Shown here piece after piece: positions 7,561 to 23,408 of a stretch of DNA of 39,849 nucleotides. Each line of letters starts with the position of its first letter. Position 1 is the stretch's first letter. Source of the DNA: a virus. The notes beneath the pieces are model-generated. The model did no database searches, was not told the origin of the DNA, and saw only the letters and a program-made list of their open reading frames with translations. The stretch is from the IMG/VR virus record IMGVR_UViG_3300044627_003186, positions 1-39,849 of that record; one strand, given 5' to 3'. The position numbers and the translations under genes are program-made.

Positions 7561-7637
7561 TGGTGCGCCTTGATGGATTCGAACCACCGACCTGCGAACT
7601 AGAAAATCGCCGCACTTTCCATCTGTGCTAAAGGCGC
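7561..7637 (-). tRNA. tRNA-Arg (anticodon UCU), CCA encoded
   Basis: The reverse strand folds as a complete 77-base cloverleaf. Acceptor GCGCCTT pairs with AAGGCGC, followed by A and CCA. The D stem is GCAC/GTGC. The anticodon stem GCGAT/TTCGC has a final T-T mismatch, and its loop TTTCTAG gives anticodon TCT with A37. The variable loop is AGGTC. The T arm is GGTGG-TTCGAAT-CCATC. It should read AGA and AGG, which tend to be rare in GC-rich hosts, so it may support phage codon use. It is transcribed at the end of the leftward unit. Confidence 0.93.
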
Positions 7638-20550: not shown

Positions 20551-20744
20551 CTGAACACGATGACGACCTTGACGGCGTTCTATTCCGCTTTTGGATCAGG
20601 GCAGCGTCCTATCCCGGAGGCTGGCCATCGGCAGTAGCGGCGGCACTCAGCCCCTGCAAGACGCCAGCCGAATATCGTGCGGCGCTGATGAAGCTGGCCC
20701 AGGAAAAGGGCGTCAATCTGCCCATGCCAGAGCGCATTCCATGA
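20547..20744 (+). CDS. hypothetical 65-residue protein
   Basis: Overlaps both neighbours by four bases. The sequence is acidic at the start (MTEHDDDLDGVLFRFWIRAA), then SYPGGWPSAVAAALSPCKTP and a C-terminal helix (AEYRAALMKLAQEKG). No motif recognised. Part of the rightward early operon after the presumed origin. Confidence 0.6.
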   Translation: MTEHDDDLDGVLFRFWIRAASYPGGWPSAVAAALSPCKTPAEYRAALMKLAQEKGVNLPMPERIP

Positions 20745-22250: not shown

Positions 22251-22444
22251 CCCCTGATCAATTCCGCGCAGCCCTTGCCAGCTTGGGCTTATCCCAGGCC
22301 GGCTTTGCTCGCCTTGCCATGGTGGACGCTCGCACCGTGCGCCGCTGGTGCGACGGAACGCGGGCCGTGCCTGGGCCGGTGGTGGCGCTGCTGCGGGTGA
22401 TGATGGCCAAAGATGAATGCCGCGAAATTGCGATTGAGGGGTGA
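22247..22444 (+). CDS. XRE-type HTH protein
   Basis: A 65-residue DNA-binding protein: MTPDQFRAALASLGLSQAGF, ARLAMVDARTVRRWCDGTRA. The second helix (DARTVRRWCDG) is a classic recognition helix. A short hydrophobic C-terminal helix (PGPVVALLRVMMA) may dimerise. It overlaps the upstream gene by four bases. As the second HTH regulator of the rightward unit it could act on the late promoter region. Confidence 0.75.
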   Translation: MTPDQFRAALASLGLSQAGFARLAMVDARTVRRWCDGTRAVPGPVVALLRVMMAKDECREIAIEG

Positions 22445-22487
22445 TGACCATGGAATGGCAACTGCCTGCCCCGCCGAAAGGAACAAC

Positions 22488-23144
22488 ATGATTCCCCTTT
22501 TCAGCAACGCGACCGTTCTTTGGACTGAGCGCGAAATCGAAGAGCGCGACGCTTTAATCCGGCTGATTGCCACGATTGTCCGGGATGCCTGGCAAGGCCT
22601 CAACCCTGCCGTGACCATGATTCGGGTCGAGACGCCCATCTTGACGCCTGCCGGACATCTTGGTGGACATATCGCCGCCGGGTTTGAGTTGCTGGGCACT
22701 GAGCGCGGTTATTTGCGCCCCGAGACTACGGCGGGCACCTTTGCGGCGCTCGACGCCCTCTTTCCGCAACAGGCGCAGCGCATGAAGCGGCTGCCGGTCT
22801 GCTTATGGCAAGCGGGCAAGTCTTTCCGAGACGAAGCGCACGGCGAGACGATGCGCGCGACCAAACTGCGGCTCCGGGAGTTTTGGCAGCAGGAGTTCCA
22901 ACTGTTCTGCCGCCCCGACACTAAGGCGGATTACATCGGCGCGGCGCTGGAAGCCCTGACCGCGCGCTTTGGTGGTGAGGCCGCTCCGGCTGATGAATTG
23001 CCCCACTACAGCCGCCGAACGGTGGACTGGCACATGCGCGGCTTGGAGGTGGCGGGATGCTCCGAGCGCACGGATTGGCCGGAAGGCGTGGTGTTTGAGG
23101 TGGCAATCGGCCTAGATCGGCTGGTTGCACTGAAAGGCGCTTGA
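22488..23144 (+). CDS. stand-alone class II aminoacyl-tRNA synthetase core, GlyRS-like
   Basis: A 218-residue protein with all three class II signature regions. Motif 1 ends IRVETPIL (43-52, with E48 and P50). Motif 2 is GKSFRDE (110-116), continuing to REFWQQEFQLF (130-140). Motif 3 is FEVAIGLDRL (203-212). LRPETTAGTF (76-84) and ELPHYSRRTVDW (170-181) are closest to glycyl-tRNA synthetase. The anticodon-binding domain is absent. It could charge a tRNA or another acceptor, adenylate an amino acid, or be a non-catalytic paralogue such as the GlyRS-like polymerase-gamma accessory subunit. AGGAA precedes ATG 22488. It is the last gene before the ribozyme region. Confidence 0.8.
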   Translation: MIPLFSNATVLWTEREIEERDALIRLIATIVRDAWQGLNPAVTMIRVETPILTPAGHLGGHIAAGFELLGTERGYLRPETTAGTFAALDALFPQQAQRMKRLPVCLWQAGKSFRDEAHGETMRATKLRLREFWQQEFQLFCRPDTKADYIGAALEALTARFGGEAAPADELPHYSRRTVDWHMRGLEVAGCSERTDWPEGVVFEVAIGLDRLVALKGA

Positions 23145-23169
23145 CAAGCCCCTGATTTATTTGTAAGGG
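23141..23169 (+). promoter_or_regulatory. possible late promoter
   Basis: TTGACA at 23141-23146 overlaps the GlyRS-like stop. At 17 bases the -10 would be TAAGGG, a poor match, so either an activator is needed (the GcrA-like or HTH proteins are candidates) or it is fortuitous. It would give a roughly 130-base leader before the ribozyme cleavage site. Confidence 0.35.
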
Positions 23170-23258
23170 GGGCATATTCTGGAATTTTGCGCCCGGAGCC
23201 TTGCAAGGCAAAGGGTAAAGTCGTTGGCTCCCAAGGTGGGGAACAATGGAGCATCTGG

Positions 23259-23329
23259 CCCGGCATTTTGCGACTGATGAGCCTGAATGGCGAAACGCTT
23301 CGGCGTCTCGTGGAGTAGCCCCAGCCGGG
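23259..23329 (+). ncRNA. hammerhead self-cleaving ribozyme (stem I open)
   Basis: The full conserved core is present: CTGATGA at 23274-23280; stem II GCC-TGAAT-GGC at 23281-23291; GAA at 23292-23294; stem III ACGC-TTCG-GCGT at 23295-23306; cleavage base C23307 in a canonical GTC, so cutting falls between 23307 and 23308. Stem I pairs GCGA (23270-23273) with TCGT (23308-23311), extended by U-G and U-A pairs, then an internal loop, then CCCGGC (23259-23264) with GCCGGG (23324-23329). The internal loop opposite loop II is where type I ribozymes form tertiary contacts. It lies in the untranslated leader of the terminase genes. Confidence 0.88.
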
Positions 23330-23363
23330 GAATAAATGGCTACCTAAGCCCACCAATTTAACC

Positions 23364-23394
23364 GCCCGAGGCCCGCTAGGCTGCCGGGCTTTTT
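23364..23394 (+). terminator. intrinsic terminator before the terminase genes
   Basis: GCCCG at 23364-23368 pairs with CGGGC at 23385-23389, with an inner GGCC/GGCT pairing and loop CGCTA, followed by TTTTT (23390-23394). It stands between the ribozyme and the late genes, so late transcription must read through it or begin after it. Confidence 0.7.
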
Positions 23395-23408
23395 CATGGA
23401 GAAGCACG

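Follow-up and report, generated by a model that had tools for sequence, protein, structure and literature searches.

A phage hammerhead ribozyme at the joint of a conserved, doubly pseudoknotted RNA that probably acts in trans

A hammerhead ribozyme (HHR) in a viral contig of 39,849 nt (IMG/VR record IMGVR_UViG_3300044627_003186, positions 1 to 39,849; the whole stretch is called the window here) is probably a module of a conserved, trans-acting phage non-coding RNA, which contains two interlocked pseudoknots and would be nicked by the ribozyme where its two halves meet. What hammerheads do in bacteria and phages is still largely unsettled. The original prediction treated the ribozyme as the main entity and placed it in the leader of the terminase operon, with a cut separating two messages; comparison with more than 100 phage sequences leads to a different picture, in which the ribozyme is an optional insert in a larger RNA.

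The ribozyme itself is of a known kind, a hammerhead of type I (CGS). Read base by base, the predicted core, stems and cleavage triplet are in place (Table 1), with core residues C3, G5, A6 and G8 and G12, A13 and A14 intact, stems II and III closed and stem I open. The exact spaced core pattern found no chance match in 100 shuffles, and a stricter pattern matched once, with 0.05 matches expected. A second match to the bare core spacing (20685-20718, + strand) has no stems, lies in a coding frame and is attributed to chance. Rfam models did overlap the ribozyme, the best being Hammerhead_3 in the wrong permutation, but its 21.3 bits fell short of the gathering cut-off of 48.5; the related locus L089 likewise remained below its cut-off (Hammerhead_1, 28.7 bits versus 34). 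Moreover, the pseudoknot-free minimum-energy fold of the isolated window segment is not a hammerhead (-27.6 kcal/mol versus -18.8 kcal/mol for the hammerhead with its outer helix). Fold and Rfam score thus leave the ribozyme unsure from its own sequence, and the case for it rests on the relatives.

Table 1. Positions of the ribozyme, the enclosing RNA and adjoining features in the window
Feature	Position	Strand	Details
TTGACA-N-TTATTTGTA block	23143-23165	+	Conserved in relatives with and without the element
Whole element	23221-23354	+	Half 1 (23221-23265), HHR insert, half 2 (23308-23354); ends set by landmarks
s1, N1-CGTTGG	23221-23227	+	N1 = T23221; K = T23225
Helix a	23227-23252	+	23227-23231 with 23248-23252; loop holds strand b; pairs verified in the window
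Strand b, GGTGGG	23235-23240	+	Partner b' (CCCACC, 23349-23354); pseudoknot 1
Strand c, CCCGGC	23259-23264	+	Partner c' (GCCGGG, 23324-23329); pseudoknot 2
HHR insert, type I (CGS)	23270-23311	+	Pair-by-pair reading; conserved at the same place in 86 of 122 relatives
HHR stem I, GCGA/TCGT	23270-23273 with 23308-23311	+	4 bp
HHR core CTGATGA (CUGAUGA)	23274-23280	+	
HHR stem II, GCC/GGC	23281-23283 with 23289-23291	+	3 bp; loop TGAAT
HHR core GAA	23292-23294	+	GAAA in the window
HHR stem III, ACGC/GCGT	23295-23306	+	4 bp; TTCG loop
HHR cleavage nucleotide C17	C23307	+	Triplet GUC, 23305-23307; predicted cut 23307/23308
s2, N2-CGTGGA	23308-23314	+	N2 = T23308, first base past the cut
Helix d, GTAGCC/GGCTAC	23315-23343	+	23315-23320 with 23338-23343; loop holds c' and GGGGAATAAATG (A23336 = partner of K)
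Strand b', CCCACC	23349-23354	+	
Terminator-like hairpin, GCCCG...CGGGC-TTTTT	23364-23394	+	Directly 3' of the element; fold -16.0 kcal/mol

Indeed, among the 122 family members that could be parsed, 86 have a hammerhead at this place, with the core intact as CUGANGA in 84 and altered to UUGAUAA in two. All 86 contain GAAA and a UH cleavage site (UC in 52, UA in 30 and UU in 4), base 2.1 is complementary to N2 in nearly all of them, and loop II is short and variable. L162 and L170, which are closest to the window copy, differ from it only in loops II and III, with core and stems kept. The pair at the foot of stem II (10.1/11.1), normally G-C in hammerheads, is like-with-like in 37 of the 86, namely A-A in 29 and U-U in 8 (for example L085 and L094). 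In addition, C3U and G8A occur together in L082 and L209 (UUGAUAA) and in L207 (UUGACAA), a double change that looks compensatory, because C3 and G8 pair within the active hammerhead structure.

The RNA around the ribozyme is the size of a tRNA, about 92 nt, or about 134 nt with the hammerhead in the window. Half 1 reads N1-CGUKG-[a]-(b)-[a']-AUCUGG-[c] and half 2 N2-CGYGGA-[d]-(c')-GAAUAAmU-[d']-(b'), where N is any base and K is G or U. Both halves begin N-C-G-U/C-(G/U)-G and follow a common plan: a 5' N-C-G motif, a 6-bp hairpin, a loop strand whose partner is the tail of the opposite half, and a tail strand whose partner is the loop of that half. Helices a and b cross, as do c and d, and the outcome is two H-type pseudoknots that interlock; from this pairing scheme, we infer that the RNA is a pseudo-two-fold-symmetric internal dimer. 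The outer CCCGGC/GCCGGG helix of the original prediction does pair, but what had been described as outer stem I is helix c, that is, pseudoknot 2 of the larger RNA. Likewise, GTAGCC/GGCTAC, proposed as a refold after cleavage, is helix d of the native fold. A covariance model constructed from HHR-less relatives alone matched the window over 23260-23358 as a full model (49.7 bits, E = 7e-11); cmsearch placed the end of half 1 inside the gap occupied by the hammerhead, and the ends of the element were therefore set by landmark.

A DNA search at sensitive settings with positions 23145-23400 as the query matched the otherwise dissimilar Arthrobacter phage Constance, Mycobacterium phage Gaia and Enterobacter phage SDFMU_EhYP. 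Beyond the ribozyme core, the sequences share ATCTGGCCCGGCA upstream and GGAGTNNNNCC...GGGGAATAAmTGNNNACC downstream. Scanning IMG/VR with the downstream part yielded 101 contigs. Among the matches listed, there were ~147 distinct copies on phage contigs, of which 122 were parsed and 74 are non-redundant, whereas only 7 matches, mostly on metagenome contigs, were obtained from 84,980 species genomes, indicating that the element is a phage feature. The carriers are phages of actinobacteria, proteobacteria and cyanobacteria. The hammerhead is present in 51 of the 74 non-redundant members and absent from 23, which consist of the scaffold without the ribozyme and so argue against the ribozyme as the main entity; in most HHR-less members, one or two nucleotides join the halves. 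In every HHR-bearing member, the predicted cut falls exactly at this joint, before N2, and homology thus bears out the position 23307/23308 predicted from the window. Nearly all of 48 phage records contain one copy, and most double matches stem from the two halves of a permuted element. Tandem pairs were observed in L090 (150-520, two HHR-less copies) and on the reverse strand of L162 (~1280-1640, two HHR copies).

Enterobacterial phages and Escherichia coli prophages contain a circular permutation of the element, in the order half 2-half 1, with the hammerhead at the 5' end and a hairpin joining b' to N1. This form was found in prophages of 15 of 5,426 complete E. coli genomes, where it lies between the antiterminator gene Q and the holin gene, within a long stem. 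The lambdoid stem CACAACAGGTAAGAGCATTG/CAGTGCTCTTTCCGTTGTG between Q and holin encloses the permuted HHR element in L196 (8080-8300), and in L197 (1560-1670) the same stem surrounds a quite different sequence without the element; this stem is possibly an exchange site for RNA modules. No scaffold family was recognized by Rfam 15 at E <= 0.1 in 15 related loci, which gave only tRNAs and two weak, sub-threshold hammerhead matches, nor in the window at either the gathering cut-off or loose E-values. A search of the open-access literature outside bioRxiv (hammerheads combined with phage, tRNA array, pseudoknot, permutation or RAGATH) returned no matching description. Within Rfam 15 and the literature searched, the host RNA would be a new class of phage RNA, although it may exist in other sources.

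To assess the fold, pairing across the 74 non-redundant members was compared with that of shuffled partners, and all four helices were found to covary. Helix a is 98.0% paired (70% when shuffled; 119 cells changed on both sides), helix c 99.8% (81%; 68 cells) and helix d 100% (77%; 107 cells), and a b/b' helix of at least 6 bp is formed in 74 of 74 members compared with 19.7 with shuffled tails. The parser imposed CG and the A-CT--CC motif and chose candidates by helix a, and was blind to N1, N2, K, m and helices b, c and d. The sequences GGAGT, GGGAATAA and ACC were demanded by the search pattern, which accounts in part for their invariance, and 25 distinct copies outside the parser limits, including the window copy, were read by eye or landmark. 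The same signal is present where there is no ribozyme: in the alignment of the 23 HHR-less members, 93.6% of cells pair, whereas shuffling lowers the figure to 77.0% and a shift by one column to 53% or less. Both sides change in 20 of the 28 pairs, and on all measures the observed value exceeded that of every shuffle. In addition, K pairs with m, the variable base of GAATAAmT, as G-C or U-A in 120 of 122 members.

A different rule governs the base with which each half starts. N1 and N2 are identical in 120 of 122 members, with all four letters represented, and N1:N2 ranks fourth among all column pairs by corrected mutual information, behind three ordinary base pairs; neither base covaries strongly with any further column. 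The identity extends to HHR-less members (35 of 36). Direct antiparallel pairing of s1 with s2 was rejected, since identical bases, be they A, C, G or T, do not form Watson-Crick pairs. In HHR-less members, pairing of N1 with the base preceding N2 is partial (21 of 33 Watson-Crick). Identity rather than complementarity is what would be expected of symmetry-related bases meeting on a two-fold axis, and on the pseudo-dyad N1 and N2 probably form a like-with-like pair. Alternatively, one and the same partner may read both bases.

With regard to genomic surroundings, a tRNA gene lies within 400 nt of the element in 18 of 71 loci, whereas positions drawn at random from these loci would give 5.7. 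The 59 tRNAs concerned all share the strand of the element, 13 elements are within 20 nt of a tRNA, and in Mycobacterium phage phiGD24-3 the element fills the gap between tRNA-Ser and tRNA-Trp. The neighbouring protein genes are diverse (terminase, portal, endolysin, HNH, methylase), the EhYP copy being inside a structural operon, and no association with a single downstream gene family was found. In most phages, the element is co-directional with its neighbours; in three loci, the nearest long genes are antisense on both sides. A downstream terminator is not a general trait (within ~100 nt in only 7 of 74 members, versus 5 of 74 upstream), and the search for a shared sigma-70 promoter across the family gave only a few good cases. 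A perfect TTGACA-N16-TATAAT promoter lies 66 nt upstream of the HHR-less copy in L188.

In the window, the element lies between a gene for a glycyl-tRNA synthetase (GlyRS)-like protein and the terminase region, ahead of the large terminase gene (TerL). Two relatives with 95% identical TerL (L001 and L002) have the same flanks and lack the whole element, indicating that it was gained or lost as a unit, untied to the terminase. The HHR-less covariance model found no element in TerL relatives such as these, and 80 loci that surround relatives of the window TerL, scanned strictly for HHRs, yielded no other hammerhead, so that the element does not follow the terminase. The TTGACA-containing block upstream is possibly the start region of the RNA; it is not a full sigma-70 promoter. 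The 3' half and T-run of the hairpin at 23364-23394 also occur in element-less relatives, and a terminator-like hairpin stands beside the element in L157, L162 and L170; a consensus terminator scan did not call the window hairpin. Both flanks of the element (23190-23209 and 23363-23382) resemble one and the same terminator arm, which is single in L001 and L002, suggesting that recombination between terminator-like repeats brought the element in. The 243-aa protein encoded immediately upstream of it (22413-23141, + strand) matches the class II aminoacyl-tRNA synthetase core of the glycine type (Pfam PF00587, 2e-7; NCBIfam glycine--tRNA ligase, 9e-16), is seemingly too short for an anticodon-binding domain and is also encoded by relatives without the RNA element. 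The sole tRNA gene of the window, for tRNA-Arg (TCT) (7561-7637, - strand), is far from the element and on the opposite strand.

A modified form of the original idea is a leader acting in cis, in which the hammerhead trims the late mRNAs for terminase here and for holin in lambdoid prophages, and the 3' product, being knotted and starting with a 5'-OH, shields them from 5'-dependent decay. The places of the element ahead of TerL, between Q and holin and in the EhYP structural operon fit this proposal, as does the 5'-OH, which established hammerhead chemistry leads one to expect. But the element is absent next to nearly identical terminases, its downstream genes are heterogeneous, both neighbours can be antisense, and in the window group a terminator-like hairpin follows it. 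In addition, 23 of 74 members have no ribozyme to do the trimming, and the cleavage products would still be held by helices b (GGTGGG/CCCACC) and c, both of which covary, so that the cut alone would not separate upstream from downstream message. We therefore find no support for the terminase-operon leader as originally drawn and regard the modified version as unlikely, while co-directionality with neighbouring genes keeps a cis role conceivable in most phages. Less likely still is a processive antitermination RNA, similar to put, serving phage late or tRNA operons: terminators adjoin the element in the window group, it occupies the late leader region of lambdoid prophages, and nearby tRNA genes always run in its direction, but some members are antisense to their neighbours and a terminator within ~100 nt is hardly more common downstream than upstream.

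Two further explanations carry little weight. The scaffold might be a mere peripheral domain that speeds the hammerhead and replaces the usual contact between loops I and II; it encloses stem I, the position of the ribozyme is constant, and hammerheads often contain pseudoknots that connect stems I and II (PMC3088659). We consider this very improbable because the scaffold is equally strict in members that have no hammerhead, down to the identity of N1 and N2. Finally, the resemblance could be accidental, with neither a working ribozyme nor a functional RNA, as the sub-cut-off Rfam score and the competing thermodynamic fold might be taken to imply. Compensatory changes over >100 phage sequences, together with loops that vary in L162 and L170 while core and stems are kept, make chance scarcely credible.

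The explanation that we consider probable is that of a trans-acting RNA with the hammerhead as a module. In tRNA arrays, N1 would be at or near the 5' start of the RNA. The hammerhead would nick the backbone before N2, leaving a 5'-OH, the end that hammerhead cleavage produces; helices b and c would hold the halves together after the nick, and the short stem I would open, freeing N2 to take up a position equivalent to that of N1. The folded RNA would then work in trans as a particle. Its setting in tRNA arrays, which it has in common with the phage RNAs GOLLD and ROOL, suggests translation, or tRNA-directed defence or counter-defence, as the area of its role. Counted against the trans reading are the window HHR segment, which does not fold as a hammerhead in pseudoknot-free prediction, and the distance of the window copy from any tRNA. 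We see about an even chance that the full picture holds: a new phage RNA class with pseudo-two-fold symmetry, comprising after the HHR cut two chains with matching 5' ends and a like-with-like contact of N1 and N2 on the axis, tolerant of permutation and of loss of the hammerhead, and acting in trans during infection from tRNA arrays and late regions.

A large covarying set thus presents the hammerhead as a module of another RNA, with the HHR-less RNA as a natural control and with natural circular permutants. Covariation of the kind seen in the identity rule N1 = N2, which covers all four letters, is uncommon among RNAs and yields a sharp, testable prediction; with the permuted version present in E. 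coli prophages, laboratory strains can be used to address the question.

Compared with the type I hammerheads of Rfam (RF00163, clan CL00010), the family ribozymes are alike in CUGANGA, GAAA, the NUH site, the three stems and the open stem I; they differ in their place at the joint of a pseudoknotted scaffold, conserved in sequence, which also occurs without them, and in the A-A or U-U, rather than G-C, foot of stem II in 37 of 86. Intergenic hammerheads have been described in phages PaP3 and Bcep176 (Perreault et al. 2011, PMC3088659); both were rejected as family members, the scaffold being absent from the two genomes by pattern and by covariance model. Relations to HDV-like ribozymes, group I introns and tmRNA were dismissed, the order of the strands being incompatible. 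A precedent for permutation within a pseudoknotted RNA that contains a hammerhead is provided by type-SGC and other permuted hammerheads (Eckert et al. 2023, PMC10085705), but there the ribozyme blocks themselves are permuted, whereas in the present family the HHR blocks stay CGS and the scaffold halves are swapped. GOLLD and ROOL, structured phage and prophage RNAs of hundreds of nucleotides and unknown function, are often found near tRNA islands (PMC12286853). Their Rfam models matched neither the window nor the 15 related loci; the family RNA resembles them as a structured phage RNA near tRNAs and differs in its length of only ~92 nt and in the internal hammerhead that most members contain.
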